The notes beneath the pieces are model-generated. The model had not been told where the DNA came from and did no database searches. It was given only the letters and a program-made list of their open reading frames with translations. A stretch of 64,000 nucleotides of DNA, from the NCBI RefSeq assembly GCF_900129445.1, contig NZ_FQVT01000004.1, positions 62,001-126,000 of the forward strand, in the 5' to 3' direction. Positions 18,202 to 32,852 of the stretch are shown piece by piece. Source of the DNA: Salegentibacter echinorum. Lineage in GTDB: Bacteria > Bacteroidota > Bacteroidia > Flavobacteriales > Flavobacteriaceae. Each line of letters begins with the position of its first letter. Positions within the stretch are counted from its first letter, which is position 1. The translations under genes and the position numbers were made by a program.

Positions 18202-18624
18202 ATTTTAAATTATAATTGATTTAAAAATACGGGCTGAATTTGACGGGAAAAGCAAAGCTGAAGTTATTACTGCTTTAGCATTTTTAATACGCATTTATGC
18301 ATATTTCAGGGTTGCAATCAGTCAAATCCTTCCCTTAAATAATTCATTTGCAAATGTATGAAAATAAGCAGAACCCAAACTTGCTTTAACGTTATTTTTT
18401 ATTTTGATAAGGTTGGCTAGCTTCTCTAGAGAGATAGTTGGGATTAGATTCAAAATGCGACCAGGTTTTTTATAGCTGTTGGACAAAAATTAAAGCCTGT
18501 TGTTAGTAAGCTGAAGAATATGAAGCTGCAAAGAATACATAATTCTCATTAAGAAGGCTGTTTGAGTATTAAAATGCAAATAAAATGATTTCAAATAAAA
18601 TTATTCGTAAAAATGCACTTCCGG
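18202..18624. other. Intergenic region between metK and the metY attenuators
   Basis: About 420 bases without a recognisable gene. It must hold the metK promoter (minus strand), but I could not point to a clear TAnnTTTG box for it. Confidence 0.5.
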
Positions 18625-18657
18625 TTTGGATATTAAAAAAATCTACCCTTATCTTTG
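18625..18657 (+). promoter_or_regulatory. Promoter of the metY attenuator-controlled operon
   Basis: TTTG at 18625-18628 and TATCTTTG at 18650-18657 form a Bacteroidota -33/-7 pair with a 21-base spacer. The start ATG of the first leader peptide follows 18 bases after the -7 box. I see no further consensus promoter before metY, so both attenuators probably lie on one transcript. Confidence 0.72.
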
Positions 18658-18675
18658 TGTCAAACAAAACGAAAA

Positions 18676-18747
18676 ATGTACCAGGTAATTAACAATATGA
18701 TGCGAATGATGATGTGGATGACTTCCGCAGCGCGCTCTATTGCTTAA
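18676..18747 (+). CDS. Met-rich leader peptide 1 (attenuator of the metY operon)
   Basis: A 23-codon ORF with ATG start and TAA stop. Met occurs at residues 1, 8, 9, 11, 12, 13 and 15, that is six internal Met codons within eight positions, with a Trp at 14. It starts 18 bases after a good -7 box and ends 26 bases before an intrinsic terminator. Bases 18727-18732 (GCAGCG, in the codons right after the Met cluster) are complementary to 18776-18781, the 5' arm of that terminator. A ribosome stalled on the Met codons would leave this segment free to block the terminator. This fits ribosome-mediated attenuation sensing charged tRNA-Met; the peptide itself probably has no other function. Confidence 0.85.
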   Translation: MYQVINNMMRMMMWMTSAARSIA

Positions 18748-18773
18748 TCCTGAAACGATATAAATTGCAAAAA

Positions 18774-18800
18774 GCCGCTGCCTACCGCAGCGGTTTTTTT
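18774..18800 (+). terminator. Attenuator terminator 1, upstream of metY
   Basis: CCGCTGC (18775-18781) and GCAGCGG (18787-18793) form a perfect 7-bp stem with a 5-base loop, followed by seven T. Its 5' arm can instead pair with GCAGCG at 18727-18732 within leader peptide 1, giving a 6-bp antiterminator. Confidence 0.88.
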
Positions 18801-18893
18801 ATGAGTAAAAGTTAAAAGTAGATTTTTATAGAGAAAATCTAAAGTGAAATAAAATCGAGTAAGATTTAAAAATTAAAAATTAAAAATTAAAAA

Positions 18894-18986
18894 ATGAAAA
18901 ATATAATGGCAATGCAAAATATGATGATGCGCAACACTATGATGATGTGTATGCAAATGACGCGCTATTGCCAAAACAGGATCTAA
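18894..18986 (+). CDS. Met-rich leader peptide 2 (second attenuator of the metY operon)
   Basis: A 30-codon ORF, ATG to TAA, with Met at residues 1, 5, 7, 10, 11, 12, 16, 17, 18, 20 and 22 (11 of 30) and Cys at 19 and 26. It follows attenuator terminator 1 by about 94 bases, including a TTAAAAA-type tandem repeat, and precedes a second intrinsic terminator. Bases 18964-18974, immediately downstream of the last Met codon, can form an 11-bp helix (one G-U) with 19020-19030, the loop and top of terminator 2. The complementarity is long and well placed, which strongly supports an attenuator rather than a chance ORF. Confidence 0.86.
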   Translation: MKNIMAMQNMMMRNTMMMCMQMTRYCQNRI

Positions 18987-19011
18987 CTTACTTTGTTTAG
19001 AGTTTGATTTT

Positions 19012-19049
19012 AAGTCCCCTTGGTAATAGCTACTTAAGGGGACTTTTTT
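19012..19049 (+). terminator. Attenuator terminator 2, upstream of metY
   Basis: AAGTCCCCTT (19012-19021) and AAGGGGACTT (19036-19045) form a perfect 10-bp stem followed by a T run. The loop (GGTAATAGCTACTT) is complementary to the end of leader ORF 2. The 19050-19143 leader to metY contains a small GCTTCT/AGAAGC hairpin and no further leader ORF. Confidence 0.88.
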
Positions 19050-19143
19050 ATTTAGCAAATTTTCACTTTCGCAAATGCGGAAATCAAAAAAAAAGAATCA
19101 AGCTTCTTTAAAATAGAAGCAAAACTTAAAAAAAATAGAAATT

Positions 19144-20436
19144 ATGAGTAAGCCAAATTTTTCAACAGATGCCCTTCACGCCGGTCACGATTTTAACGCC
19201 CACGCCGGCACCCGTGCGGTACCATTATACCTCACCACTTCTTATGTTTTTAAGAATGCCGATCACGCCGCAAATGTGTTTTCCCTGGCCGAGCCCGGTT
19301 ATATTTACACGCGCTTAAACAATCCTACCAACGATATTTTAGAACAACGTCTCGCAGCTTTAGAAAAAGGAATAGGTGCAGTAGTTACTGCCTCGGGAAT
19401 GGCTGCCATAAATACCACATTGTTAACGCTATTAAAAGCCGGTGATCATATTGTGGCTTCTAACAGTTTATACGGTGGTACTTACAACCTGCTTAATGTA
19501 ACCCTGCCCAGGTTTGGAATTACTACAACTTTTGTAAACCCCGAAAATCCTGAGAATTTCAAAAAAGCTGCAAAGGAAAATACCCGCGCTTTTTTCGTAG
19601 AATCACTTGGGAACCCCAAGCTGGATGTGCTAGACCTTAAAGCGATTTCTGCGGAAGCCAAAGCCTTTAAAGTACCTTTTATTGTTGACAATACCGTAGC
19701 GACCCCGGCATTATTGAAGCCAATAGAACACGGGGCAGATATTGTTATAGAATCCCTTACTAAGTATATTAATGGAAACGGTACTGCCCTGGGAGGAGCT
19801 ATTATTGACGCCGGTAATTTCGACTGGGCTAATGGCAAGTTCCCGGAGTTCACCGAACCCTCTCCCGGTTACCACGGCCTGATATATCACGATGCATTAA
19901 AAGAAGCAGCTTTTATTGCAAAAGTGAGGGTAGAAGGCTTAAGAGATCACGGCGCAGCTTTAAGTCCGTTTAATGCTTTTCAAATTATACAGGGGCTGGA
20001 AACTTTAAGTGTACGGGTAAAACAACACAGTGAGAACGCCCTGGAGCTGGCAGAATGGCTTGAACAGCAGGAGCAGGTGAAGTGGGTTAATTACCCCGGT
20101 TTAAAAAGTAGTAAATACAATAGCCTGGCGCAGGAATATCTTCCTAAAGGCCAAAGTGGGATTGTAACCTTTGGACTGGAAGGTGGCTTTGAGTCGGCGA
20201 AAACGGTTGCCGATGAAACTAAAATCTTTTCCTTACTGGCCAATATTGGTGACACCAAATCGCTAATAATCCATCCCGCCAGTACTACCCACCAACAATT
20301 AGATGAACAACAACAGGCATCTACCGGCGTAACCCAGGATCTGGTTAGGCTTTCTGTGGGACTGGAGGATATTGAAGATTTAAAAGATGATCTTAAAGAA
20401 GCATTTAAAAGTATTAAAAATCTAAAAACTGTTTAA
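19144..20436 (+). CDS. metY: O-acetylhomoserine sulfhydrylase
   Basis: PLP enzyme of the Cys/Met metabolism family that makes homocysteine (or cysteine from O-acetylserine) using sulfide. It has 430 aa; Lys207 in ESLTKYINGNG binds PLP, and the YIYTRLNNPTNDILEQRLAALE and GDTKSLIIHPASTTH stretches are typical of O-acetylhomoserine sulfhydrylases. First structural gene of metY-osmC-metX-hom-metZ, controlled by two tandem Met leader-peptide attenuators upstream. Direct sulfhydrylation here fits with the nearby sulfite reductase, which supplies sulfide. Confidence 0.95.
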   Translation: MSKPNFSTDALHAGHDFNAHAGTRAVPLYLTTSYVFKNADHAANVFSLAEPGYIYTRLNNPTNDILEQRLAALEKGIGAVVTASGMAAINTTLLTLLKAGDHIVASNSLYGGTYNLLNVTLPRFGITTTFVNPENPENFKKAAKENTRAFFVESLGNPKLDVLDLKAISAEAKAFKVPFIVDNTVATPALLKPIEHGADIVIESLTKYINGNGTALGGAIIDAGNFDWANGKFPEFTEPSPGYHGLIYHDALKEAAFIAKVRVEGLRDHGAALSPFNAFQIIQGLETLSVRVKQHSENALELAEWLEQQEQVKWVNYPGLKSSKYNSLAQEYLPKGQSGIVTFGLEGGFESAKTVADETKIFSLLANIGDTKSLIIHPASTTHQQLDEQQQASTGVTQDLVRLSVGLEDIEDLKDDLKEAFKSIKNLKTV

Positions 20437-20440
20437 AAAA

Positions 20441-20899
20441 ATGGGACTTACAAATATAAATATATCGGCAAATGCAAAGCCAAATGAGCAATTGGTTGTA
20501 AATGCACAAAATTTTGAAATTAGAATTGGGGAAAACCGGGAAAATGCAGACCTGGATGCACCCTGTCCTGTTGAGTATATCCTAGCCGGCCTCGCGGGTT
20601 GCCTAAACATAGTTGGTGGGATAGTTGCCAAAGAACTCAATATTGAAATTGAATCATTAAAGATTTCGATATCGGGAGATTTAAATACAGATAAATACCT
20701 TGGTTTGGGATCTAAAGAACGTGCCGGTTTTCAGAAAATCGAGGTTAATGTGCAACCCGTTTCAAACGCTTCCAGTGAAGCGATAAATGAGTGGATAGAG
20801 ATTGTTGAAAGTAGATGTCCTGTTCAGGATAATCTTTTAAATGCAACGCCAATCTCCCTTAAACTTGGGCGCCAACCAAAAGAACCTGCATTAGCGTAA
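20441..20899 (+). CDS. OsmC family protein
   Basis: A 152-aa OsmC/Ohr-fold protein. CPVEYILAGLAGCLNIVGGIVAKELNIEIESLKISISGDLN matches the family; one conserved Cys is in AGC, and a second is in the C-terminal SRCPVQDNL, consistent with a Cys-based peroxidase or persulfide/thiol-handling protein. It lies 4 bases after metY in the methionine operon, which suggests a role with reactive sulfur or homocysteine-related thiols; that is inference. A second, different OsmC protein precedes the metH operon (36054-36476). Confidence 0.88.
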   Translation: MGLTNINISANAKPNEQLVVNAQNFEIRIGENRENADLDAPCPVEYILAGLAGCLNIVGGIVAKELNIEIESLKISISGDLNTDKYLGLGSKERAGFQKIEVNVQPVSNASSEAINEWIEIVESRCPVQDNLLNATPISLKLGRQPKEPALA

Positions 20900-20961
20900 A
20901 GCTTTGCCGGGTCTTATTCGTTTTGTGAAAATAAATAGGAAAAGAAAAGGATTTTTTTCCG

Positions 20962-21008
20962 GTTGTTATAGCAGGCGATTATCACACTAATTGCCTGCTA
21001 AAAACAAC
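20962..21008 (+). other. Intercistronic stem-loop before metX
   Basis: TAGCAGGC (20969-20976) and GCCTGCTA (20993-21000) form a perfect 8-bp stem, extended below by GTTGTT (20962-20967) with AACAAC (21003-21008). No T run follows, so it is not an ordinary terminator. It could stabilise or process the mRNA between osmC and metX. Confidence 0.55.
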
Positions 21009-21025
21009 TTCCAAAAAATAATAAA

Positions 21026-22066
21026 ATGCTTCAGGAACTCTATATTACAAACTTTAAAAACGCTGCGGGAACGGTACAGGATATCTCTTTAAGTTTTCAG
21101 CAATTTGGAAGGGATCCCCATGATGCGCCGGTGGTTTTAGTGAACCACGCTCTTACCGGAAACTCACAGGTTACCGGGAAACTCGGTTGGTGGTCTAACC
21201 TGGTAGGGCCTAAAAAAGCCATTAATACCAAAGAATTTAGTATTCTGGCTTTTAATATTCCGGGAAATGGTTTTAACGGAAAAAAAGAGAATCTAATAGA
21301 TAATTACAAAGAATTTACTTTAGGTGATATTGCGAGGATACAGGCCCTGGCTTTAGAAAAACTTAAAATAGAAAAATTGTTCGCTATTATTGGTGGATCT
21401 ATTGGCGGTGCCCTGGCCTGGGAATTGGCTGCTTTAAAACCAGAGCTTGCTACTCATATTATCCCAATCGCGACAGATTATAAGGCTACAGACTGGGTTC
21501 TGGCTAATTGCCAGGTGCAGGCGCAAATTTTAAATAACTCTACCACGCCGGTGAAAGATGCCAGGATGCACGCAATGACTTTTTATCGCACCCCACAGTC
21601 GTTAAGTAAGAAATTTAACAGGACTAAGGAAGATGTTAAGCCCTGCTATAAAGTTGAAGGCTGGTTACAATATCACGGGGATAAGTTAGAAGAACGTTTT
21701 CAATTGGCTTCCTACAAATTTATGAACCACCTTTTAACGACAATCGATATTAGCAAAGGCAGCGGGAAATACCTGGAAACTGCAAAGAAAATTGAAGGGG
21801 ATATCCATATAGTTACTGTAAATTCAGACTGGTTTTTCCTGGCAGATGAAAACTGGGATACTTATGTAAACTTATCTTTAATAAAAGAGAATGTGAGTAT
21901 TCATGAAATACGTTCTATTCACGGGCACGATGCCTTTTTAATAGAAGCTTCGCAGCTGGCCAGGTTTTTAAAGCCAATTTTTATAAACAATAATAACAAT
22001 ACTAAAGCAAATGAATCCGGTCTAAAGCTGGGAGCAAAAAGTTTTAATCGCGGGGCAATAGCCTAG
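21026..22066 (+). CDS. metX: Homoserine O-acetyltransferase (alpha/beta hydrolase fold)
   Basis: Activates homoserine with acetyl-CoA for sulfhydrylation by MetY/MetZ. The 346-aa protein has the nucleophile elbow GGSIGGALAWELA, the acid region VTVNSDWFFLADENW and the catalytic His in HGHDAFLIEASQLA, all as in MetX. The N-terminal HALTGNSQV stretch is also family-typical. Its setting between metY and hom supports MetX over other acyltransferases; acetyl specificity is inferred from the family. Confidence 0.9.
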   Translation: MLQELYITNFKNAAGTVQDISLSFQQFGRDPHDAPVVLVNHALTGNSQVTGKLGWWSNLVGPKKAINTKEFSILAFNIPGNGFNGKKENLIDNYKEFTLGDIARIQALALEKLKIEKLFAIIGGSIGGALAWELAALKPELATHIIPIATDYKATDWVLANCQVQAQILNNSTTPVKDARMHAMTFYRTPQSLSKKFNRTKEDVKPCYKVEGWLQYHGDKLEERFQLASYKFMNHLLTTIDISKGSGKYLETAKKIEGDIHIVTVNSDWFFLADENWDTYVNLSLIKENVSIHEIRSIHGHDAFLIEASQLARFLKPIFINNNNNTKANESGLKLGAKSFNRGAIA

Positions 22067-22210
22067 GGTTTAATTCCCCGGGGCTGGCCTCGAAATATAA
22101 GATTTTTTCCGGAAGCATACCTTGTATCCTGGTTCGAGGTTGTTGTTTAAACAGGTTTCTGTAAATAGTTTTGTTACAAATTCCCAAATTTGGGGTTAAA
22201 TTTTAAATTA
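22067..22210 (+). other. Spacer between metX and hom with inverted repeat
   Basis: Contains CCTCGAA (near 22089) and TTCGAGG (near 22133) as inverted arms about 40 bases apart, and AATTCCCCGGGGCT, which partly resembles the C/G-rich repeat family of this window. No leader ORF rich in Thr, Ile or Met was found. Function unclear. Confidence 0.35.
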
Positions 22211-23281
22211 ATGAAGAAAGTAAACATCATCTTGTTTGGAATAGGTAATGTAGGTAGTACCTTAATTGAGCAATTATTTGACACAAAAAAACAATGGGAG
22301 GAACATTTTGGAGCTTCTATAAATATCCCGGTAATCGCAAATTCTACGAAGGCTCTATTTAAAGCTGAAGGAATTAATGAAAACTGGGAAAAGGATTTCA
22401 AAAAATCTGCCGAAGCTTACAAACTGGAAGATATCCTGGACTTTACCAAAGAAAATGATTTTGAGCATCTCATCGCTATAGATGCTACAGCGAGTAAAGA
22501 GTTTGTAGAGATCTACATTCGGTTGGTGCAAAATGGCTTTAGCCTTGTGGCTGCCAATAAAGTGGCGAATACATTATCGGCCGATTTTTATAAGAAATTA
22601 CGCAAAGAATTGGAGTATCACGGCAAACATTTTCTTTATGAAACAAATGTTGGCGCCGGTTTACCTATTGTACAAACTATACAGGGATTGCACCAGGCAG
22701 GAGAAAAAATCACTAAAGTACGCGGGGTTTTCTCTGGTTCTTTAAGCTATATTTTCAATACTTTTTCTACCAATAAAGAGCGTTTTTCTGAAGTTCTGCA
22801 GAAAGCCGATAAGCTGGGTTACACCGAGCCAGACCCACGGGAAGATCTTTCGGGAAATGATGTGGGAAGAAAACTTTTAATTTTGGCCCGGGAGCTTCAG
22901 CTGGAAAAAGAATTTGAAGAAGTGGAGATCCAATCGCTTATTCCAGAGCACTTAAACGGGGAGACTTCCGCAGAAGAATTTCAGGAGAATTTAGGGGATT
23001 TGGATGAAATATTCCAACAGCGAAAAAAAGATCAGGATACAGATCACGTGCTGCGTTATATTGGCGAAATAGAAGTGAAAAAGGCGGCTTTGGAAGCCAA
23101 ATTAATTTCAGAGCCAAAGAATACTGCACTGGGACAAATTAAAGGCGCCGATAATATTTTTGAAATTTATACTGAATCTTATGGTGACCAGCCGCTGGTA
23201 ATCCAGGGAGCGGGCGCCGGCGCAGCTGTGACGGCAAGAGGCGTGGTAAGTGATGTATTGAAAATCGCACAACAACTATAA
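22211..23281 (+). CDS. hom: Homoserine dehydrogenase
   Basis: NADP-dependent reduction of aspartate semialdehyde to homoserine, the branch-point metabolite consumed by MetX. Starting at ATG 22211 (MKKVNIILFGIGNVGSTLIEQL, an N-terminal Rossmann motif) the protein has 356 aa; an in-frame TTG 21 bases upstream is less likely. GVFSGSLSYIFNTFS and GYTEPDPREDLSGNDVGRKLLILARE are the catalytic-domain signatures with the conserved Lys and Asp residues. It has no fused aspartokinase and no C-terminal ACT domain, so it appears devoted to the methionine operon. Confidence 0.92.
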   Translation: MKKVNIILFGIGNVGSTLIEQLFDTKKQWEEHFGASINIPVIANSTKALFKAEGINENWEKDFKKSAEAYKLEDILDFTKENDFEHLIAIDATASKEFVEIYIRLVQNGFSLVAANKVANTLSADFYKKLRKELEYHGKHFLYETNVGAGLPIVQTIQGLHQAGEKITKVRGVFSGSLSYIFNTFSTNKERFSEVLQKADKLGYTEPDPREDLSGNDVGRKLLILARELQLEKEFEEVEIQSLIPEHLNGETSAEEFQENLGDLDEIFQQRKKDQDTDHVLRYIGEIEVKKAALEAKLISEPKNTALGQIKGADNIFEIYTESYGDQPLVIQGAGAGAAVTARGVVSDVLKIAQQL

Positions 23282-23295
23282 AATTTAGAAAATCA

Positions 23296-24459
23296 ATGCA
23301 TTTTGAAACCGAAGCCATAAGAACACAAAGTGAACGCACCCAGTTCCAGGAGCATTCTACGCCCTTATTTTTAACATCCAGCTATGTTTTTGAGGATGCC
23401 GAAGAGATGAGGGCTTCATTTTCTGAAGAAAAAGAACGTAATATTTACAGCCGCTTTACAAATCCCAATACTTCAGAATTTGTTGAAAAGATGGCAAAGA
23501 TGGAAGGTGCGCAGGCCGGTTTTGCTTTTGCTACAGGAATGAGTGCGGTGTTTTCTACCCTGGCAGCTCTTTTAAATAGTGATGATCATATCATTTCTGC
23601 ACGTTCTATTTTTGGATCTACCCATAGCTTGTTTACTAAGTTTTTTCCTAAATGGAATATCTCACACGACTATTTTAAGGTAGATGAGGTCGATAAGATT
23701 GAAAGCTTAATTACGCCAAAAACAAAGATTATTTTTGCTGAAACCCCAACGAATCCCGGGGTAGATGTATTGGATTTGGAGCGGCTGGGAGAAATTGCTA
23801 AAAAACATCAACTTATTTTGATTATAGATAATTGTTTCGCTACGCCTTGGTTGCAAAATCCTATAAAATTTGGTGCAGATTTAGTGATTCATTCGGCTAC
23901 AAAATTAATCGATGGGCAGGGCAGGGTGCTTGGCGGCGTTACCGTGGGGAATGCAGAATTAATTAGGGAGATTTACCTGTTTTCAAGAAATACCGGGCCG
24001 GCTTTGTCGCCGTTTAATGCCTGGGTTTTATCCAAGAGTCTGGAGACTTTGCCGGTGCGATTAGACAAGCATTGTGATAATGCTTTAAAAGTTGCAGAGT
24101 TTCTGGAAACCGAACCGAATGCTGAAAATATAAAATATCCTTTTTTAAAGTCGCATCCACAATATAAAATTGCTAAAAAACAAATGAAAAAAGGTGGGAA
24201 TGTGGTTTCATTTGAAATTAAAGGTGGAATTGAAGCAGGCAGAAAGTTTATAAATGCGATAAAGCTTTGCTCGAGATCGGCTAACCTGGGAGATACCCGC
24301 AGTATAGTGACGCATCCTGCTTCGACAACCCACGGCAGGCTTAGTGAAGAAGATAGGTTGGAGGCCGGGATCAAACCGGGTTTAGTGAGAGTTTCGGTAG
24401 GGCTGGAGCACGTAGATGATATTATTGCAGATTTACAGCAGGCTTTAAAATTAATTTGA
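23296..24459 (+). CDS. Cys/Met metabolism PLP enzyme (MetZ/MetB-like)
   Basis: A 387-aa trans-sulfuration family enzyme. PLP Lys203 lies in VIHSATKLIDGQGRVLGG, and NIYSRFTNPNTSEFVEKMAKMEGAQAG is typical of O-succinylhomoserine sulfhydrylase (MetZ). GDTRSIVTHPASTTHGRLSEEDR is close to the C-terminal signature. Cystathionine gamma-synthase (MetB) is the main alternative; sequence reading alone does not separate them. It is the second homocysteine-forming PLP enzyme in the operon besides MetY, and begins 14 bases after hom. Confidence 0.85.
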   Translation: MHFETEAIRTQSERTQFQEHSTPLFLTSSYVFEDAEEMRASFSEEKERNIYSRFTNPNTSEFVEKMAKMEGAQAGFAFATGMSAVFSTLAALLNSDDHIISARSIFGSTHSLFTKFFPKWNISHDYFKVDEVDKIESLITPKTKIIFAETPTNPGVDVLDLERLGEIAKKHQLILIIDNCFATPWLQNPIKFGADLVIHSATKLIDGQGRVLGGVTVGNAELIREIYLFSRNTGPALSPFNAWVLSKSLETLPVRLDKHCDNALKVAEFLETEPNAENIKYPFLKSHPQYKIAKKQMKKGGNVVSFEIKGGIEAGRKFINAIKLCSRSANLGDTRSIVTHPASTTHGRLSEEDRLEAGIKPGLVRVSVGLEHVDDIIADLQQALKLI

Positions 24460-24552
24460 GTGAGAGAATTGTAGCGATCCCGGTTTTGATATAATTGCGG
24501 TGAGAATGTATTTTAAAATGCTGAAAAGTCAAACTTTAAGTATATTCGCTGT

Positions 24553-24969
24553 ATGCTTTCAAAAAAGACTAAATACGGAATTAAAGCCCTGGCGTTTATT
24601 GCCAGGAAAAAAGATAGAAAACCAGTACAGACTTCAGAAATTGCTAAAAGTGAGAATATTTCTCAAAAGTTTTTGGAGAGTATTTTATTAGAATTGAGAA
24701 AATCTGGATTTCTAGGCTCTAAAAAAGGAAAAGGTGGAGGATATTATCTTATACAAGAGCCCGAAGATATCGGTATGACAGCGGTGATAAGGGTGCTGGA
24801 AGGACCAATAGCGATGGTACCTTGTGTGAGTCTTAATTACTATGAAAAGTGTGACGACTGTCCCGATGAAAAAGCCTGCTCTGTAAATAAGTTGATGGTG
24901 CAGGTTAGAGATAGTACTTTAAAAGTGCTGGGCGATAACACTTTAGCCGATGTTGCTGCTACAAAATAA
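24553..24969 (+). CDS. Rrf2-family transcriptional regulator (CymR/IscR-like)
   Basis: A 138-aa Rrf2 protein. The winged HTH is in residues 1-65 (LSKKTKYGIKALAFIARKK, then SEIAKSENISQKFLESILLELRKSGFLGSKKGKGGGYYL). The C-terminal half has Cys residues in PCVSLNYYEKCDDCPDEKAC, similar to the cluster or effector region of IscR/NsrR, although spacing differs. It sits between the methionine operon and the sulfate-assimilation operon. A perfect palindrome lies just downstream of the promoter of the latter, so a cysteine-repressor role like CymR is likely but inferred. Confidence 0.88.
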   Translation: MLSKKTKYGIKALAFIARKKDRKPVQTSEIAKSENISQKFLESILLELRKSGFLGSKKGKGGGYYLIQEPEDIGMTAVIRVLEGPIAMVPCVSLNYYEKCDDCPDEKACSVNKLMVQVRDSTLKVLGDNTLADVAATK

Positions 24970-25095: not shown

Positions 25096-25344
25096 ATGAT
25101 ATTGGATCACCTAAAAACGAAAAGCACTTATAAAAAGGACCGCACTTCAGAAAAACCACTGCGCAGTATTTTAAAAACGGTGAGTTGGAGAATTATAGGG
25201 ACTATAGATACTGTTGTGATATCGTGGGTGCTTACCGGGCAAATTGAAACTGCGCTAGCCATTGGTTCGGTAGAATTGGTGACTAAAATGATCCTGTATT
25301 TTGCGCACGAGCGGGTTTGGAATTTAATTCCTTTTGGAAAATAA
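25096..25344 (+). CDS. DUF2061 small membrane protein
   Basis: An 82-aa protein with two membrane helices. SILKTVSWRIIGTIDTVVISWVLTGQIETALAIGSVELVTKMILYFAHERVWNLI is the DUF2061 domain almost entirely. In many Bacteroidota and Proteobacteria the family sits with cysDN/cysH genes, as here. Its role in sulfate assimilation is unknown; possibly a sulfate or sulfite membrane factor. Confidence 0.85.
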   Translation: MILDHLKTKSTYKKDRTSEKPLRSILKTVSWRIIGTIDTVVISWVLTGQIETALAIGSVELVTKMILYFAHERVWNLIPFGK

Positions 25345-25372
25345 AAATTATCCATTTAAGAAAACTAGAAAA

Positions 25373-26002
25373 ATGAAACGATATAACGAGAAAGAGTTAA
25401 AGGTTTTAAATCAGCAATTTAAAGGGATTACTCCGGCAGAAATTGTACAGTGGGTGATATCTAATGCGGCAAAGCCAGTGGTAACCACAAATTTTAGACC
25501 TTATGAAGCGGCACTTCTGCACGCGGTTTCAGAAATAGATGAGGCTATAAAAGTAATTTGGTGTGACACCGGTTATAATACCCCGCAAACCTATAAACAC
25601 GCCAGGCAGTTGATTGATCAGTTAGGTTTAAATGTAAAACTTTACACCCCAAAGCAAACGGCTGCCTACCGGGATGCACTATTTGGAGGTATCCCAGATA
25701 TTAATAATCCGCAACACGAAGAGTTTACGAGACAGGTAAAACTAGAACCTTTTCAACGTGCCATGCGTCAACAAGATCCCGATGTTTGGTTTACCAACCT
25801 AAGAAAGGGGCAGACCAATTTTAGGGATAGCATAGATATTTTAAGCTATAGCAAAGACGGTATTTTAAAAGTGAGTCCATTTTATCACTGGAGTGATGAG
25901 AAATTGGATAAATACCTGGAGCAGTACAGCTTACCCAACGAGTTTAAATATTTTGATCCTACCAAAGTATTAGATAATAGAGAATGTGGTTTACACGCAT
26001 AA
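25373..26002 (+). CDS. cysH: Phosphoadenylyl-/adenylyl-sulfate reductase (CysH)
   Basis: Reduces activated sulfate to sulfite. Starting at ATG 25373 gives 209 aa; an in-frame ATG at 25334 would overlap the DUF2061 gene and adds an unconserved basic stretch. Visible motifs are VIWCDTGYNTPQTYKHA and the C-terminal RECGLHA with the catalytic Cys. The two Cys pairs that bind a 4Fe-4S cluster in typical APS reductases are absent (the region reads MRQQDPDVWFTNLRKGQTNFR). By family rule this points to the thioredoxin-type PAPS form, yet no APS kinase (cysC) is seen in this cluster. Confidence 0.9.
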   Translation: MKRYNEKELKVLNQQFKGITPAEIVQWVISNAAKPVVTTNFRPYEAALLHAVSEIDEAIKVIWCDTGYNTPQTYKHARQLIDQLGLNVKLYTPKQTAAYRDALFGGIPDINNPQHEEFTRQVKLEPFQRAMRQQDPDVWFTNLRKGQTNFRDSIDILSYSKDGILKVSPFYHWSDEKLDKYLEQYSLPNEFKYFDPTKVLDNRECGLHA

Positions 26003-26013
26003 ATTAAAGATAT

Positions 26014-26913
26014 ATGAATTCAATTTTAAATCAAAATTCACTTGAAAGCGAGGCGATTTATATCCTTCGGGAAGTAGTGGCACAATTTGACAATCCTGTC
26101 TTATTATTTTCGGGAGGGAAAGATTCTATTAGCCTGGTAAGGTTGGCTCAAAAAGCTTTTTATCCGGCAAAAATTCCTTTTCCTCTTATGCATATAGACA
26201 CGGGACATAATTTTCCAGAAACTATCAAGTTTCGGGATCAGCTTGTTGAAGAGCTGGGGTTGCGACTTATTGTTCGCAGCGTTCAGGATGATATAGATCG
26301 AGGTATTTCTGTGGAGGAAAAAGGAAAATACTCCAGCAGGAATTTACTTCAAACCAATACACTATTAAATGCTATAGACGAATTTAAGTTTGATGCTTGC
26401 ATTGGGGGAGCACGCCGCGATGAGGAAAAGGCAAGGGCAAAAGAGCGAATTTTTTCCATAAGAAATGATTTTGGAGAGTGGGATGAAAAGAATCAACGTC
26501 CGGAAGTTTTTGATATGCTAAATGGAAAGATAGATATAGGACAGAATGTTAGGGTGTTTCCAATTTCAAACTGGACCGAATTAGATGTTTGGGAGTACAT
26601 AAAACGGGAAAATATTGAGATACCTTCAATTTATTTTGCCCATGATAGGGAGGTTTTCGAAAGGGATGGATTGATATGGACCGCTTCTAAATATGTGTAT
26701 AAAGATGAAGATGAAATTACAAAAACCAAAAGGGTGAGATTTCGAACTGTGGGGGATATTAGTTGTACCGCTGCTGTAGAATCCAATGCAGATTCCATCG
26801 AGAAAATAATTGAAGAGATAAGGGATTCAGCAATATCAGAACGCGGTGCCAGGATAGATGATAAAAGATCTGAAGCCGCAATGGAAACCAGAAAACAACA
26901 AGGTTATTTCTAA
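26014..26913 (+). CDS. cysD: Sulfate adenylyltransferase subunit 2
   Basis: PP-loop ATPase subunit that forms adenylyl sulfate from ATP and sulfate together with CysN. The 299-aa protein has the SGGKDS motif (LLFSGGKDSISLVRL, residues 31 onward) and HIDTGHNFPETIKFRD; the C-terminal RGARIDDKRSEAAMETRKQQGYF is CysD-typical. It follows cysH by 11 bases and precedes cysN by 12. Confidence 0.97.
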   Translation: MNSILNQNSLESEAIYILREVVAQFDNPVLLFSGGKDSISLVRLAQKAFYPAKIPFPLMHIDTGHNFPETIKFRDQLVEELGLRLIVRSVQDDIDRGISVEEKGKYSSRNLLQTNTLLNAIDEFKFDACIGGARRDEEKARAKERIFSIRNDFGEWDEKNQRPEVFDMLNGKIDIGQNVRVFPISNWTELDVWEYIKRENIEIPSIYFAHDREVFERDGLIWTASKYVYKDEDEITKTKRVRFRTVGDISCTAAVESNADSIEKIIEEIRDSAISERGARIDDKRSEAAMETRKQQGYF

Positions 26914-26925
26914 AAAAAAATTGAT

Positions 26926-28170
26926 ATGGAAGTTTTAAAAATAGCAACAGCAGGCAGTGTAGATGATGGTAAAAGCACTTTAATAGGAAGACTGCTTTAC
27001 GATACTAAATCATTAACTTTAGATAAAATTGAAGCCATAGATAGGCTAAGCAAAAAGAATGGTCTGGATTATTTAGACTTCTCTTTGGCAACAGATGGCC
27101 TGGTAGCCGAAAGAGAGCAGGGAATTACCATAGATGTCGCCCATATTTACTTTTCTACCCCAAAAAAAAGCTACATAATTGCAGATACCCCGGGACATAT
27201 TGAATATACCCGAAACATGGTGACGGGAGCATCTACCTCTCAAGCCTCTATTATTCTCATAGATGCGAGAAAGGGAGTAATTGAACAAACCTATAGGCAT
27301 TTTTATATCAATAATTTGTTGAGGGTTAAAGAGGTGATTGTGGCTATTAACAAGATGGATCTTGTTAACTATTCCGAAGAGGTTTTTAATAACATTATTC
27401 AGGATTTTGAGGAATTGAAGGCCAGGAGTGATTTTAAAGATCAGAAGCTTACTTTCATACCGGTAAGTGCATTATGGGGAGAAAATATTGCTGAAAAATC
27501 TAATGCGATGTCATGGTACGATGGTCAAACCATTCTTGAACATTTAGAAGATCTAAAAACAGAAGATTTTGTAGAGCAAACCCAGGCAAGATTTCCGGTG
27601 CAAACAGTAGTTAGACCAAAAACCGACGAATTTCACGATTATCGAGGCTACGCCGGGAAAATTAGTGGAAACAGTTTTCATATTGGTGATGAGGTAACTG
27701 TACTGCCTTCCGGGACTAAATCTACAATAAAAGAAATTCATTTCTTCAACGAATCCTTTAAGGAAGCTCCTGCAGGAAGCTCGGTAACCATTAGTCTTAC
27801 AGACGATATTAATGTCGCCAGGGGAGATATGTTAGTGAAAACTTCAGAAGTTCCCAATGAAAAGAAATTACTGGATGCCACCGTTTGCTGGATGGATAAC
27901 AAACCGCTAATCCCAGGTGCAAAATATGTAATACAGCACAATACTAATAGCGTTCTTGCAAAGATTGATAAGGTTGAAGGAAATGTAAATACAAATCCAG
28001 AAGTAGTAAGCCAGGAACCTAATCTTAAATTGAATGATATTGGCAATGTAAGGCTAAAATTAAGCAAATGTATTTTTGCTGATAGTTATAATTCAAATCG
28101 CGCCAACGGAAGATTTATTTTAGTAGATACCCAAACCAACACCACTGCCGGAGTAGGTTTTATTAAATAG
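26926..28170 (+). CDS. cysN: Sulfate adenylyltransferase subunit 1 (GTPase)
   Basis: GTPase subunit that drives sulfate adenylylation by CysD. The G1 motif is SVDDGKSTLIGRLLYD (residue 11 onward), with DTPGH and NKMD also present, followed by EF-Tu-like beta-barrel domains. At 414 aa it is the CysN form without a fused APS kinase domain. The next downstream element, 11 bases after the stop, is a leader peptide with terminator, so transcription from here into the sulfite reductase genes appears conditional. Confidence 0.97.
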   Translation: MEVLKIATAGSVDDGKSTLIGRLLYDTKSLTLDKIEAIDRLSKKNGLDYLDFSLATDGLVAEREQGITIDVAHIYFSTPKKSYIIADTPGHIEYTRNMVTGASTSQASIILIDARKGVIEQTYRHFYINNLLRVKEVIVAINKMDLVNYSEEVFNNIIQDFEELKARSDFKDQKLTFIPVSALWGENIAEKSNAMSWYDGQTILEHLEDLKTEDFVEQTQARFPVQTVVRPKTDEFHDYRGYAGKISGNSFHIGDEVTVLPSGTKSTIKEIHFFNESFKEAPAGSSVTISLTDDINVARGDMLVKTSEVPNEKKLLDATVCWMDNKPLIPGAKYVIQHNTNSVLAKIDKVEGNVNTNPEVVSQEPNLKLNDIGNVRLKLSKCIFADSYNSNRANGRFILVDTQTNTTAGVGFIK

Positions 28171-28181
28171 TTTAGATAAAA

Positions 28182-28244
28182 ATGAAAATAATAATGATGA
28201 ACATTTTGTCTTACATGCGTATGTGTTATTTATCTAACACTTAA
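28182..28244 (+). CDS. Met/Cys leader peptide (attenuator of the sulfite reductase genes)
   Basis: A 20-codon ORF, ATG to TAA, with Met at residues 1, 5, 6, 12 and 14 and Cys at 15. It begins 11 bases after the cysN stop and is followed by an intrinsic terminator 30 bases later. Bases 28240-28247 (CTTAAAAG, spanning the leader stop codon) are complementary over 8 bp to 28277-28284 in the terminator 5' arm and loop. A ribosome stalled on the Met-Arg-Met-Cys codons would leave that segment exposed. The architecture is the same as in the metY leaders, so I infer that Met (perhaps with Cys) supply controls read-through to the sulfite reductase. Confidence 0.78.
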   Translation: MKIIMMNILSYMRMCYLSNT

Positions 28245-28271
28245 AAGTCCATTTTATAAATTCAATTATAA

Positions 28272-28309
28272 AAGCCCTTTTAAGAAATTTCTAAAAAGGG
28301 CTTTTTTTT
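28272..28309 (+). terminator. Attenuator terminator between cysN and the sulfite reductase gene
   Basis: AAGCCCTTTT (28272-28281) and AAAAGGGCTT (28294-28303) form a perfect 10-bp stem, with a loop that contains the palindrome AGAAATTTCT, followed by eight T. It stands 15 bases before the sulfite reductase ATG, so it must be conditionally bypassed or the gene needs its own promoter, which I do not see. Confidence 0.88.
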
Positions 28310-28323
28310 AAATCATAAATATT

Positions 28324-30417
28324 ATGCAAAGCTTTAGAACTGAATTGGAAAACCCAATTGTAGAAGAAGAAATCCTGGAACTGGAAAAAAGGATTAGAGC
28401 TTTTAAAGAAGGAAAAGAAAGCGACGACAAATTTAAGAGCCTACGGTTGGCACGAGGCGTTTACGGTCAACGCCAGGCCGGGGTGCAAATGGTGCGCATA
28501 AAATTGCCGTTTGGAAGGGTAACTTCAGAGCAGCTTCATAAAATATGCAATGTATCTGATGAGTATTCGCGGGGACGGTTGCACATTACCACCCGCCAGG
28601 ATATTCAAATACATCACGTGAGTTTGGAACGAACCCCGCAACTGTGGGAAGAACTTGCTAAAGACGATGTGACAATAAGGGAAGCCTGCGGCAACACGGT
28701 AAGAAATGTAACCGCTTCTCCTACCGCTGGGATAGATGTGAACGAACCATTTGATGTTTCGGCCTATGCCCGGGCTACTTTTCAGTTTTTTCTAAGAAAT
28801 CCCATTTGCCAGGAAATGGGCAGGAAATTTAAAATTTCCTTTTCTTCTTCTGAAGAGGATACAGCGCTAAGTTATATTCACGATTTAGGTTTTATTGCTA
28901 AGCTAAAAGATGGAAAACGCGGCTTTAAAGTGGTTTTGGGTGGCGGACTCGGCTCGCAACCAAGACACGCCGATGAGCTTTATGATTTTATAGAAGCCAA
29001 AAAAATAATTGAATTAATAGAAGGGGTAATAAGGGTTTTTGATCGTTATGGAGAACGTTCTAAGCGTATGAAAGCAAGAATGAAATTCCTTATCAAAGAA
29101 ATTGGGAAAGATGCTTTTATGAAATTGGTGGAAGAGCAGAAAACAGCCCTTTCGGGGGTAGTGCCAAAATTTGAAACCGAAAAATATGAAGCTGCACCGC
29201 CTCTGCAGGATGTGACGGTACCCGCAGTGAAAATAGATGACGACGAAGCATTTAAAACCTGGAAAAGCACTAATGTAATTCCGCAAAAACAGCAAGGCTT
29301 GTTTGCTATTGGAATTAGGGTTTCCCTGGGCGATTTTTACACCCCCGAAGCTAGAAAGTTGGCCGATTTAATTAAAAAATATGCAGGGAATGAGATGCGG
29401 TTTACCCTGCGCCAGGATATTCTCTTGCGCCATGTGCGGGAAGAATTTCTGCCTTTTTTTTATACCGAGCTTAAAAAACTGGGATTTGCAGAAGCCGGTT
29501 ATAATAAAACCGTAGATATTACCGCCTGCCCGGGTACCGATACCTGTAATTTGGGAATTGCAAGTAGCACCGGGATTGCCGCTGTTTTAGAAGATCTCTT
29601 AAAAGAGGAATATCCGCATTTTGTAAATGGACGGGACATTACCATAAAAATAAGCGGTTGTATGAATGCCTGTGGCCAGCATAATATGGCCGAAATTGGT
29701 TTTCAGGGAATGACAGTGAAATCGGGCAAGAGCGTGGCGCCTGCACTTCAAGTCTTGTTGGGTGGCGGACAATTTGGAGACGGAAAAGGACGCTTTGCCG
29801 ACAAAGTAATAAAAATACCCAGTAAACGTGGCCCCCATGCGTTTAGGAGATTGCTTAACGATTTTGAAAAGGAGTCTGGAGAAGGTGAACGTTTTACCGA
29901 ATATTACGAAAGACAGGGCAAAACTTATTTTTACGATTTATTAAAGGACCTGTCCGATACTTCTAAGTTAAGTCAGGATGAATTTATAGACTGGGGACAC
30001 GATGCGCCTTATATAAAAGCTATTGGGGTTGGCGAATGTGCCGGTGTGGTAATAGATCTTATCGCAACATTGCTTTTTGAAAGTGAAGAAAAGATAGATA
30101 ATGCCAAAACAGCCTTGCAAAGAAAATCCTGGGCAGACAGTATTTACCATTCCTACACTTCTATTGTGAATTCAGCCAAGGCTTTATTGTTGGCCGAAGA
30201 TGTAAAGACCAATACACAGGCCGGAATCATTTCTCAGTTCGACGAGTTATTTGTGCAAACCGGTAAAATAGAATTATCAACTTCCTTTAAAGAATTTGCT
30301 TATCAAATGAACGAAAATGAACCCGGCGAAACTTTCGCAAACAAATATTTAGAAGACGCGCATTTATTTTTGAAAAGGGTAGATGCTTATAGAACAAAGG
30401 AGGTACAGGATGCTTAA
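28324..30417 (+). CDS. Ferredoxin-type sulfite (nitrite/sulfite) reductase with C-terminal HEPN-like domain
   Basis: Six-electron reduction of sulfite to sulfide. The 697-aa protein has the two-fold siroheme reductase repeat (RLHITTRQDIQIHHV near residue 85, MRFTLRQDILLRHV near 358). The siroheme/4Fe-4S ligands are Cys402, Cys408 (C-X5-C in TACPGTDTCNLG) and Cys446, Cys450 (C-X3-C in SGCMNACGQ). About 150 C-terminal residues beyond the reductase fold form a helical HEPN-like domain, seen in Bacteroidota homologues. Nitrite as substrate cannot be excluded, but the neighbours (cysHDN, siroheme genes) point to sulfite. Confidence 0.9.
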   Translation: MQSFRTELENPIVEEEILELEKRIRAFKEGKESDDKFKSLRLARGVYGQRQAGVQMVRIKLPFGRVTSEQLHKICNVSDEYSRGRLHITTRQDIQIHHVSLERTPQLWEELAKDDVTIREACGNTVRNVTASPTAGIDVNEPFDVSAYARATFQFFLRNPICQEMGRKFKISFSSSEEDTALSYIHDLGFIAKLKDGKRGFKVVLGGGLGSQPRHADELYDFIEAKKIIELIEGVIRVFDRYGERSKRMKARMKFLIKEIGKDAFMKLVEEQKTALSGVVPKFETEKYEAAPPLQDVTVPAVKIDDDEAFKTWKSTNVIPQKQQGLFAIGIRVSLGDFYTPEARKLADLIKKYAGNEMRFTLRQDILLRHVREEFLPFFYTELKKLGFAEAGYNKTVDITACPGTDTCNLGIASSTGIAAVLEDLLKEEYPHFVNGRDITIKISGCMNACGQHNMAEIGFQGMTVKSGKSVAPALQVLLGGGQFGDGKGRFADKVIKIPSKRGPHAFRRLLNDFEKESGEGERFTEYYERQGKTYFYDLLKDLSDTSKLSQDEFIDWGHDAPYIKAIGVGECAGVVIDLIATLLFESEEKIDNAKTALQRKSWADSIYHSYTSIVNSAKALLLAEDVKTNTQAGIISQFDELFVQTGKIELSTSFKEFAYQMNENEPGETFANKYLEDAHLFLKRVDAYRTKEVQDA

Positions 30418-31195
30418 TATTCCAAAATTAAGCGTAGTAGGCGCAGGGCCTGGAGACCCGGAATTGATCACGATTAAAGCACTAAATACTTTAAAAGATG
30501 CCAAAGTGGTGCTTTATGATGCGCTTATTAATCGCGAATTACTAGAATACGCGCCTCAAGCCGAGCATATTTTTGTTGGAAAACGAAAGGATAAACACAG
30601 GTATTCCCAGGATGAGATCAACAAACTTATCGTGAAATATGCTTTGGAAAGAGGTCACGTGGTAAGATTAAAAGGTGGTGATCCTTTTGTCTTCGGAAGG
30701 GGTTCTGAAGAGTTAGCTTTTGCTAAACGCAAAGGTTTGGAAACCGCAGTAATCTCGGGGATTACTTCTTCAATTGCAGTACCGGCAAATGTTGGAATTC
30801 CGCTTACGCAACGAGGAGTTTCAGAAAGTTTCTGGGTAATCACGGGAACTACTTCACGACGTAAATTGTCTAATGATGTTAAGCTGGCTGCACAGTCAAC
30901 CGCAACGGTGGTAATCCTCATGGGAATGGGAAAACTGGGAGAGATTGTAAAGGTTTTTAACCACTTCGGAAAGGAAAATATTCCGGTAGGCATTATTCAA
31001 AATGGCACTACCGATAATGAGAAGTCGGGTTTTGGAACGATTAAAAGTATAGAAAAAGTAGTTGCTGAAAAACAACTTACCGCGCCGTCAATTATCGTTA
31101 TTGGCGAAGTAGTTCGGGAAAGCGGAAAATTAGAGGCGGTAATGCAGAACGCAATTCAGGAATCAGTAATTATAAATTCCCCCTTTGGGGGCTAG
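30410..31195 (+). CDS. cobA: Uroporphyrinogen-III C-methyltransferase
   Basis: Makes precorrin-2 for siroheme, the cofactor of the sulfite reductase just upstream. The family motifs are VGAGPGDPELITIKAL at the N-terminus, RLKGGDPFVFGRGSEE and GIPLTQRGVS. I place the start at 30410, overlapping the reductase stop by 8 bases, because AGGAGG at 30398-30403 is an unusually good Shine-Dalgarno for this phylum; an upstream in-frame ATG at 30383 is less likely. The last five codons (SPFGG) and the stop are formed by a copy of the C/G-rich palindromic repeat. Confidence 0.94.
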   Translation: MLNIPKLSVVGAGPGDPELITIKALNTLKDAKVVLYDALINRELLEYAPQAEHIFVGKRKDKHRYSQDEINKLIVKYALERGHVVRLKGGDPFVFGRGSEELAFAKRKGLETAVISGITSSIAVPANVGIPLTQRGVSESFWVITGTTSRRKLSNDVKLAAQSTATVVILMGMGKLGEIVKVFNHFGKENIPVGIIQNGTTDNEKSGFGTIKSIEKVVAEKQLTAPSIIVIGEVVRESGKLEAVMQNAIQESVIINSPFGG

Positions 31196-31203
31196 GGGTG
31201 GCT
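31176..31203. repeat. C/G-rich palindromic repeat (copy R1) forming the end of cobA
   Basis: ATTCCCCCTTTGGGGGCTAG followed by GGGTGGCT matches the arms flanking the MetH insertion and the copy at 44751-44778. The cobA stop codon TAG (31193-31195) is inside it. Confidence 0.75.
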
Positions 31204-31204
31204 T

Positions 31205-31798
31205 ATGGAAGATAGAAACGAATTATACCCGGTTTTTTTAAAGGTAAACAAGTTGAATATCCTGGTAGTTGGCGGCGGAAATGTAGGACAGGAAAAGCTT
31301 CATTTCTTGTTTAAATCCAGCCCCAATGCGAAGGTGGAAGTTGTAGCAAAACACTTTTTACCGGAAACCGAAGAACTGGCAAAAAAGCACGGCGCAAAAC
31401 TCGTTAAAGGTCGTTATAAAAAGAAATATCTAAAGAAAAAACACTTTGTCATTGCGGCCACCAATGATGCTAAACTGAACAAAAAGGTACACCGCCATGC
31501 TAAAAAGCGTTATTTGCTGGCCAATATCGCAGATACGCCAGAGCTTTGTGATTTTTATATGGGTGGGATTGTAAATAAAGGGCATGTGAAAATTGGTATT
31601 TCTACCAATGGAAAATCCCCAACGGCAGCCAAACGGTTGCGTCAGTTTTTTGAGGAGGTGATTCCGGAAAATGTAAACGAGATGGTAGAAAACCTCAATG
31701 AATACCGAAGTACCATAAAAGGCGATTTTGAAGCCAAAGTAGAACAAATGAATAATATAACCGAAACTTTAAAAGTTAAAAATAAGCGTGATGATTAA
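31205..31798 (+). CDS. Siroheme synthase (precorrin-2 dehydrogenase/ferrochelatase, CysG N-terminal type)
   Basis: Oxidises precorrin-2 to sirohydrochlorin and inserts iron, completing siroheme. The 197-aa protein corresponds to the N-terminal CysG/Met8p domain: NILVVGGGNVGQEKLHFL (Rossmann), FVIAATNDAKLNKKVH, NIADTPELCDFYMGGIVNKGHVKIGISTNGKSPTAAKRLR. The methyltransferase half is the separate cobA gene upstream. It overlaps the next gene by 11 bases. Confidence 0.93.
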   Translation: MEDRNELYPVFLKVNKLNILVVGGGNVGQEKLHFLFKSSPNAKVEVVAKHFLPETEELAKKHGAKLVKGRYKKKYLKKKHFVIAATNDAKLNKKVHRHAKKRYLLANIADTPELCDFYMGGIVNKGHVKIGISTNGKSPTAAKRLRQFFEEVIPENVNEMVENLNEYRSTIKGDFEAKVEQMNNITETLKVKNKRDD

Positions 31799-32852
31799 AA
31801 CTGATATTCTAATAATAGGAGCCGGTCCAACCGGATTATTTACCGTTTTTGAAGCGGGTTTACTAAAATTAAAAACTCATTTGATAGACGCCCTGCCACA
31901 GCCGGGCGGACAATGTTCTGAAATTTATCCCAAAAAACCAATTTACGATATTCCCGCTTTTCCCGAAATTCTGGCGGGGGATTTGGTAGGAAACCTTATG
32001 GAACAGATAAAGCCTTTTGAACCGGGATTTACTTTGGGTGAACGCGCCGAAACTTTAGAAAAATTAGATGATGGTACTTTTATCGTGACCACCAATAAAG
32101 GAACCCAACATCACTCTAAAGTAGTGGCCATTGCAGGAGGTTTAGGTTCTTTTGAACCCAGAAAACCCCCAATTTCAAATATCACCGATTTTGAAGACAA
32201 AGGCGTGTCTTATTTTATAAAAGACCCGGAAGTTTACCGCGATAAAAAAGTAGTGATTGCCGGTGGCGGGGATTCGGCCTTAGATTGGGCGATTTACCTG
32301 GCCGATGTTGCTGCAGAGGTTGCCCTGGTACACCGCAGGGCAGAGTTTCGCGGTGCATTGGATTCTGTAGAACAGGTTTCTGAACTGTCTAAACTTGGGA
32401 AAATAGAAATGATTACCAATGCCGAGGTGGTTGGTTTAAGAGGGGAGGATAAACTGGAGCAAGTAGTAATTAGGCATAAAGATGAAGCACGTGGGGAAGA
32501 GTTTCGTGAAATAGATGATTTTATCCCGCTCTTCGGACTTTCTCCTAAGCTTGGTCCGCTGGGAAGTTGGGGGCTGGAGATTGAAAAGAATGCCATAAAA
32601 GTTGATAATTCTTACGATTACCAAACTAATATCCCGGGAGTTTATGCCATTGGGGATGTAAACACGTATAAAGGAAAACTTAAACTTATCCTTTCCGGTT
32701 TCCATGAAGCTGCGATTATGTGCCAAAGTGCTTATCAGCGAATTTTTCCAGATAAAAAATATGTACTTAAATATACCACCGTGGGTGGCGTAACCGGATT
32801 TGACGGCTCTAAAAAAGAAGCCAAAAAAGAAGTGGTGCAGAGTATTGGATAG
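31788..32852 (+). CDS. Ferredoxin--NADP+ reductase, thioredoxin-reductase type
   Basis: A 354-aa FAD/NAD(P) oxidoreductase. FAD motif DILIIGAGPTGLFTVFEAGLL at the N-terminus, PQPGGQCSEIYPKKPIYDIPAFPEI (the YumC-type FNR signature without a CxxC redox pair), NADPH motif VVIAGGGDSALDWAIYLA, and GVYAIGDVNTYKGKLKLILSGFHEAA at the C-terminus. Last gene of the sulfite reductase transcript, it most likely reduces the ferredoxin that feeds the sulfite reductase. Two adjacent ATG codons (31788, 31791) are both possible starts. Confidence 0.92.
   Translation: MMIKTDILIIGAGPTGLFTVFEAGLLKLKTHLIDALPQPGGQCSEIYPKKPIYDIPAFPEILAGDLVGNLMEQIKPFEPGFTLGERAETLEKLDDGTFIVTTNKGTQHHSKVVAIAGGLGSFEPRKPPISNITDFEDKGVSYFIKDPEVYRDKKVVIAGGGDSALDWAIYLADVAAEVALVHRRAEFRGALDSVEQVSELSKLGKIEMITNAEVVGLRGEDKLEQVVIRHKDEARGEEFREIDDFIPLFGLSPKLGPLGSWGLEIEKNAIKVDNSYDYQTNIPGVYAIGDVNTYKGKLKLILSGFHEAAIMCQSAYQRIFPDKKYVLKYTTVGGVTGFDGSKKEAKKEVVQSIG

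Follow-up and report, generated by a model that had tools for sequence, protein, structure and literature searches.

Two Met-rich leader peptides with terminators and antiterminators precede metY in Salegentibacter echinorum: predicted tandem attenuators for sulfur amino acids

Transcription attenuation by leader peptides is known classically from the trp, his, leu, ilv, thr and phe operons. Bacteroid-trp (RF01692), which we take to be a Trp leader, belongs in the same context. It is listed as a Bacteroidetes motif (PMC2864571, in the part available). For Flavobacterium psychrophilum, a member of the same family as the organism studied here, 'strong clues' of leader-peptide attenuation upstream of amino-acid operons have been reported (PMC9723704); methionine and metY are absent from the main text of that paper, and an overlap through its Table S7 is possible. 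In the available text on Salmonella mgtCBR, the leader carries tandem attenuators, mgtM and mgtP, whose signals are ATP and proline and whose effects are additive (PMC3641672). Mycobacterial polycysteine leaders stand before cys operons, and their control is termed translation attenuation in the excerpted text of PMC13236596. Methionine genes appear in the parts of the literature at hand under SAM riboswitches, Met T-boxes or repressors: SAM-I or SAM-II occurs ahead of metY, and a tandem arrangement of SAM-I and T-box-Met ahead of metX and metY (PMC9481103, in excerpt), while the excerpted text of PMC1262725 gives no conserved RNA structures ahead of methionine operons in Actinobacteria and cites the S-box for methionine elsewhere. 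The sensing system has changed at the same gene in other cases (PMC2965389, in excerpt).

The window, the whole 64,000-nt stretch of Salegentibacter echinorum DNA analysed here, contains a metY gene preceded by two short Met-rich ORFs. The features of this upstream region (18625-19143) are the following.

18625..18657, + strand: Bacteroidota-type promoter TTTG-N21-TATCTTTG (TTTG 18625-18628, 21 nt spacer, TATCTTTG 18650-18657)
18676..18747, + strand: ORF of leader peptide 1, MYQVINNMMRMMMWMTSAARSIA, 23 aa, 7 Met, 0 Cys
18713..18729, + strand: weak small hairpin of leader 1, UGUGGA (18713-18718) with UCCGCA (18724-18729), a possible 1:2 protector competing with the antiterminator
18727..18736, + strand: antiterminator arm of leader 1, GCAGCG, bulged C, GCU; 18727-18732 and 18734-18736 pair with 18773-18781
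18772..18800, + strand: terminator 1, stem 18772-18796, U run to 18800, -15.7 kcal/mol; 18773-18781 doubles as antiterminator partner
18894..18986, + strand: ORF of leader peptide 2, MKNIMAMQNMMMRNTMMMCMQMTRYCQNRI, 30 aa, 11 Met, 2 Cys
18964..18974, + strand: antiterminator arm of leader 2, GCUAUUGCCAA, pairing with 19020-19030 in 11 pairs, one of them G-U
19012..19049, + strand: terminator 2, stem 19012-19045, U run to 19049, -17.7 kcal/mol; 19020-19030 doubles as antiterminator partner
19144..20436, + strand: metY, O-acetylhomoserine sulfhydrylase, the first structural gene (TIGR01326, above cut-off)

An earlier note, made from the letters of this DNA, had placed a promoter, two Met-rich ORFs and a terminator after each at this locus, and all of these are found there. 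The promoter agrees at 10/10 scored positions with TTTG-N-TAnnTTTG, which we assumed as the consensus. In 53 tandem loci a promoter score of 9-10 is reached ahead of leader 1 in 48 (2 after shuffling), and ahead of leader 2 in 11. The note's figure of about 2% Met in ordinary protein is close to the background in the long ORFs of the window (1.94% of residues for Met, 0.63% for Cys), against which 7 of 23 and 11 of 30 residues in the two leaders stand out. Both terminators fold better than their shuffled versions (z -4.67 and -4.39), with 0/200 shuffles as good in either case. Each leader shows two marks of an attenuator, a cluster of codons for the product of the pathway and, ahead of the first structural gene, an intrinsic terminator. 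When the 700 nt that precede metY in the window were dinucleotide-shuffled, 0/1000 versions had a terminator behind a Met/Cys-rich ORF, and the same was true of 0/1080 shuffles of 54 tandem loci (20 each; the window's locus included). Searches with the two peptides gave no match in NCBIfam and a single one in Pfam, to Apq12, with 14.5 bits against a cut-off of 25. A second genomic copy of the exact Met-block pattern, on contig C19, overlaps, in another frame, an ORF that encodes an Asp-rich protein; it was taken as unrelated.

Each leader also has an antiterminator, which the earlier note had overlooked. The antiterminator arm lies within the ORF in both leaders, 12 nt ahead of the stop codon in leader 1 and 9 nt in leader 2. 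Its partner is the 5' arm of the terminator, which makes the two folds mutually exclusive. With the 3' arm of the terminator omitted, the leader-1 antiterminator fold reaches -16.3 kcal/mol against -15.7 for its terminator (z -3.62), and that of leader 2 reaches -20.4 against -17.7 (z -3.46), 1/200 shuffles being as good in each case. The geometry fits an arm that is covered by a ribosome at the stop codon and free when the ribosome is stalled at the regulatory codons; the fit is loose in leader 2. Arms and partners taken from different loci pair as strongly as the proper combination in 28.7% (leader 1) and 38.9% (leader 2) of cases, since relatives share their arms. The small hairpin of leader 1 is paired in 89.9% of cells (28 rows), with a mean z of -1.41 (46 segments), and stands modestly above shuffles (paired cells 1/500, covariation 3/500, other measures 36 to 120/500); in the window alone its z is -0.79, with 37/200 shuffles as good. 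An equivalent 1:2 hairpin sought in leader 2 was unsupported (mean z -0.32).

Covariation was examined in two alignments hand-picked for diversity, A1 with 28 of the 59 leader-1 units and A2 with 30 of the 104 leader-2 units, near-copies and units of deviating layout (L023, L025, L209, L211, L213) being omitted. In A1 the six core antiterminator pairs are standard in every lettered cell, and covariation scores are 0.250 for the antiterminator (0.112 shuffled) and 0.396 for the terminator (0.207 shuffled). The corresponding values in A2 are 0.172 against 0.113 for the antiterminator, with 85.6% of cells paired, and 0.472 against 0.276 for the terminator, with 97.7% paired. None of these four scores is reached by any of 500 shuffles. 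At the fifth core pair of leader 1 the antiterminator shows AU in 13 rows, CG in 12, GC in 2 and GU in 1, while the base it shares with the terminator forms there GC in 12, UA in 10, UG in 4 and CG in 2. A single base has thus retained both of its alternative partners while substitutions accumulated, as must be the case for structures that exclude each other. Sliding the alignments by 1 to 3 columns always reduced both the number of paired cells and the covariation score; the nearest slid version is the leader-2 terminator at +1 (83.3% and 0.290), the arms containing single-base runs. Counts of pairs or of pair types give a weaker signal, the numbers of shuffles at least as high, out of 500, being 47 and 79 for the leader-1 antiterminator, 4 and 48 for the leader-1 terminator, 21 and 4 for the leader-2 antiterminator, and 6 and 473 (pair types) for the leader-2 terminator. 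The leader-2 antiterminator has 5 doubly changed pairs, and slid versions reach 4. Outer antiterminator pairs frequently fail, two of those in leader 1 being unpaired in 17/28 and 18/28 rows.

The leader bodies contain 28.6% Met in 52 distinct leader-1 peptides and 29.9% in 90 distinct leader-2 peptides, as compared with the background of the window. Cys, whose strong enrichment in relatives also escaped the earlier note, makes up 11.9% and 13.2%, which is 18.9- and 21.0-fold above background; these enrichments are partly built in, because units were picked by their Met + Cys content, while codon position was not so selected. Cys is encoded by TGT and TGC in ratios of 52/36 (leader 1) and 224/193 (leader 2), and its content is similar in the two leaders across relatives, so that no division of labour is visible. 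In leader 1 the closest Met codon lies 15 nt before the arm in 47/59 loci, and among the 52 distinct peptides Met or Cys occupies codon -7 in 46, -6 in 46 and -5 in 51, dropping to 7 at codon -4, 1 at -3 and 0 at both -2 and -1. Given the size of the ribosome footprint, this edge is where a ribosome stalled with a sulfur codon in its A site would need it. Codon -7 is Cys in 24 and Met in 22 of the 52; as ATG differs from TGT and TGC at all three bases, the exchange points to amino-acid identity. In the window, the last codon of the Met triplet of leader 1 is 15 nt before the arm, with an extra Met codon at 9 nt (the sole case among 59). Leader-2 spacing is loose: the distance from the closest Met to the arm ranges from 0 to 28 nt. 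The arm UCCGCAGAG falls in a different reading frame in L193 and L200 (PQR, PQS, not SAE) while the Met block is still in frame, indicating that the tail is kept as RNA and the Met block as codons.

Conservation, whose absence the earlier note had named as one of the outcomes that would refute its proposal, is found within the genus and beyond it. Both leader ORFs are present in all 15 Salegentibacter genomes (the window's included) and both terminators pass the score in 14; in the other (L012) the second hairpin can be seen but has a mismatch. The tandem pair is also present in Gillisia, Christiangramia, Mesonia, Salinimicrobium and many Flavobacterium, and sporadically in other families, with examples in another family (L025) and another order (L214). 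Units were counted with a filter of at least three Met and at least 20% Met + Cys, identical upstream regions being counted once and L210 left out because it lacks upstream DNA. Two, one and no units were found in 28, 41 and 6 of the 75 distinct upstream regions on named contigs, a set that is mostly Flavobacterium, whose one-unit cases are nearly all of leader-2 type and which the filter under-calls (3 of the 41 one-unit loci, L125, L167 and L185, also have a leader-1-type terminator). The corresponding numbers are 5, 3 and 72 of 80 distinct regions in the family set, which comprises the best 80 of the metY places (171 genomes have one) and leans to close relatives; 1, 1 and 7 of 9 in the nearest family genera; 1, 0 and 2 of 3, and 4, 9 and 8 of 21, in two order samples, the second being largely same-family genomes; and 1, 0 and 21 of 22 in the class sample. 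Salinimicrobium scored as having no unit because its leaders sit on another contig: the pair (G021; L253:1477-2431) has metK on one side and, at a contig end, a transposase gene on the other, and a different contig opens with metY. An insertion may have separated switch and operon there, or the assembly may be broken. In four of five one-unit loci whose upstream DNA was inspected (L119, L120, L129, L190; L174 is too short) the upstream neighbour is the end of an unrelated protein, not divergent metK, which we read as the locus having moved.

Among 199 genomes drawn evenly from the family, a covariance model of leader 1 (R1) had matches at E <= 1e-5 in 20, of which 16 were accepted on inspection (15 genera), and a leader-2 model had matches in 9; the models were built partly from the genomes searched, and strict filters lose weak members. 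The R1 matches in G024, G073, G208 and G256 were not clear Met leaders on inspection, and several weaker places consisted of a terminator only. The system is widespread, yet a minority within Flavobacteriaceae.

No SAM-I (RF00162), SAM-II (RF01726) or T-box was found on the metY strand of 18625-19143 in a search of Rfam, in which the T-box family is present. No Rfam family reached its gathering score in that region, and the matches up to E 5 are all far below, among them the leader families Phe_leader (19.3 against 55 bits), Thr_leader (17.5 against 55) and PyrG_leader (23 against 65). A set of 90 chosen metY loci was scanned with Rfam, one being excluded as it had no upstream DNA. A same-strand SAM riboswitch within 900 nt upstream of metY occurs in 0/35 loci with at least one unit and in 46/54 loci without units, 8/54 having neither element; sharing ancestry, the 89 loci are not independent tests. 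At the scanned metY loci, the leaders replace the SAM riboswitch. Another arrangement is seen in distant Bacteroidota (L215, L216, L218, L219, L223, L225, L230, L233), where a SAM-I riboswitch is followed, about 280 to 120 nt upstream of metY, by a longer ORF with a Cys/Met run at its end, such as MMMCCMCCCMY or MCMCCCCMC, with no terminator scored after it; this is possibly a Cys-sensing leader stacked on a riboswitch.

The surroundings of the leaders in the window contain the following features.

16945-18201, - strand: metK, divergent, upstream of the leaders
18265-18341, - strand: SAM-II riboswitch, toward metK
20441..24969, + strand: OsmC-like, metX-like, homoserine dehydrogenase, metZ-like sulfhydrylase and Rrf2 regulator genes (metX, hom and metZ are family matches below curated cut-offs)
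25096..32852, + strand: DUF2061, cysH, cysD, cysN, nitrite/sulfite reductase family protein, cobA and cysG parts, thioredoxin-reductase-like gene (sulfate assimilation)
36839-36946: SAM-I riboswitch, before metH
37000-41156: metH, two ORFs, the next pathway step

Judging from their close spacing on one strand, metY through Rrf2 probably form a single operon, and the sulfate-assimilation genes may be co-transcribed as well. The same-strand genes after the leaders span the path from sulfate through sulfide to homocysteine. Three kinds of RNA control (leaders, SAM-I at metH, SAM-II at metK) thus lie on the methionine pathway within 20 kb.

In other genomes, the leaders examined precede metY, metX, cysH or an OsmC-like gene. 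In L257 (G285, another family of the order), tandem leaders (L257:1480-1793) stand before DUF2061 and cysH, and, start codon aside, the second contains 9 Cys and 2 Met. Met leaders also occur ahead of genes that align to the window's metX with 45% (L262, G026), 48% (L289, G252) and 51% (L295, G171) identity; Pfam finds only an alpha/beta hydrolase in the first two, and in L295 aspartokinase and homoserine dehydrogenase domains further along the ORF. In two loci of the Flavobacterium group (L276, about 1294-1608; L277, about 1302-1605) another pair of leader ORFs, again with terminators, lies between metY and a metX gene that is 52% identical to that of the window. These ORFs have far fewer Met codons, and the pair may be a copy that has decayed or been re-purposed. 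In a genome without a metY match (L264:1138-1331), two terminators flank a Met-rich ORF, and a gene read as OsmC-like follows. A leader-1-like terminator ahead of a threonine dehydratase gene (L287:497-524) is perhaps part of another amino-acid attenuator.

We consider it very likely that the region contains two ribosome-mediated transcription attenuators in series, which would read the charging of Met-tRNA and, in many relatives, probably that of Cys-tRNA. RNA polymerase would start at 18625-18657 and a ribosome would begin leader 1. A shortage of charged elongator Met-tRNA would stall the ribosome in the Met block, leaving the arm free to pair with the 5' arm of the terminator, and the polymerase would pass. 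With ample Met, the ribosome would reach the stop codon and cover the arm, and the terminator would form. A polymerase past switch 1 would then meet switch 2, so that read-through would multiply and the OFF state would be tight. The Met-sensing attenuation put forward in the earlier note draws support from antiterminator pairing, spacing and covariation, but Cys is enriched as well. Because leaders of relatives are Cys-rich and sulfate-assimilation genes lie downstream, the signal is better called sulfur amino acids, probably with Met first; with Cys codons in the same blocks and genes making sulfide and homocysteine, shortage of Cys is probably a second input in many species. As the leader itself needs initiator Met-tRNA to start, severe Met starvation may abolish its translation, and the weak 1:2 hairpin of leader 1 might, speculatively, then favour termination.

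A variant of the two-attenuator reading, to which we give slightly less than an even chance, holds that Met and Cys are sensed on equal terms and that the two attenuators form an AND/OR gate; as it refines that reading, the chances of the two overlap. The fold enrichment of Cys in the leader bodies, the exchange of Cys and Met at codon -7, the Cys-dominated second leader ahead of cysH in L257, and sulfate reduction among the downstream genes all speak for it. In the window, however, leader 1 lacks Cys codons and leader 2 has just two, so that a shortage of Cys alone could not open switch 1 here, and across relatives the two leaders are alike in Cys, giving no sign that they divide the work.

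A metabolite-binding riboswitch with incidental ORFs would be in keeping with the SAM-I or SAM-II usual before metY in relatives, and riboswitches also use terminator/antiterminator folds, but this is very improbable: the region reaches the gathering score of no Rfam family, the Met/Cys codons are frame-specific, and what is conserved is the Met/Cys block and the switching arms, with no further core visible in A1 or A2. Just as improbable is that small functional peptides, for instance metal-binding ones, are followed by ordinary terminators. Met/Cys-rich motifs can bind copper, but the C-terminal tails follow the RNA pairing to the point of changing frame (L193, L200), every examined leader stands before one of the same four kinds of gene, and the peptides match no NCBIfam family and the one Pfam family only below its cut-off. 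That Met-rich ORFs arose by chance in AT-rich DNA deserves almost no credence; short ORFs are indeed common (15 of at least 20 aa on both strands of 18400-19300), but 0/2080 shuffles reproduced such a unit, and conservation and covariation contradict it.

We see roughly equal chances for and against the wider proposal, that this is an undescribed attenuator class which reads Met and Cys tRNA charging through two stacked leaders and has been traded with SAM riboswitches in Flavobacteriia, probably repeatedly. In that case the whole sulfate-to-homocysteine pathway would be under a sharp, tRNA-based gate, which has to sense Met though its own translation starts with Met. How a leader needing Met-tRNA to start reports a shortage of Met is a puzzle. 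Stacked leader-peptide control in place of a SAM riboswitch at the same gene suggests that lineages can switch the sensed molecule, from SAM to charged tRNA, with the targets unchanged. The units are small, modular and easily recognised, which makes wide annotation and use as reporters in Bacteroidota possible.

Leader-peptide attenuation and tandem attenuators are each known. The earlier note had called a tandem pair unusual, for which mgtCBR is a precedent, while its view of Met specificity stands: no Met leader-peptide attenuator was recognised among the matches listed in the open-licence literature, the scope of the search. The locus resembles classical attenuators in its codon-rich short ORFs, antiterminators overlapping them, intrinsic terminators and biosynthetic genes downstream, and differs from them in its Met (and Cys) codons and in having two complete units in series. 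SAM riboswitches and T-box-Met also act on the same genes in cis through RNA that responds to Met status, and they too include tandem elements, but as described in the excerpts they are RNA aptamers or a tRNA-binding RNA without a leader peptide. Mycobacterial polycysteine leaders likewise have a leader ORF with codons for a sulfur amino acid ahead of sulfur genes; in the available text of PMC1262725 they are Cys only and lack conserved terminator hairpins. The leaders of the window have no polycysteine run, while runs do occur in relatives (e.g. L066, L257). With mgtCBR, as far as its excerpted description goes, the locus shares two leader ORFs in one leader, one of those in mgtCBR sensing an amino acid (Pro) through charged tRNA. 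In contrast to mgtCBR, both units here carry Met codons, each has its own terminator, and they stand before genes of amino-acid biosynthesis.
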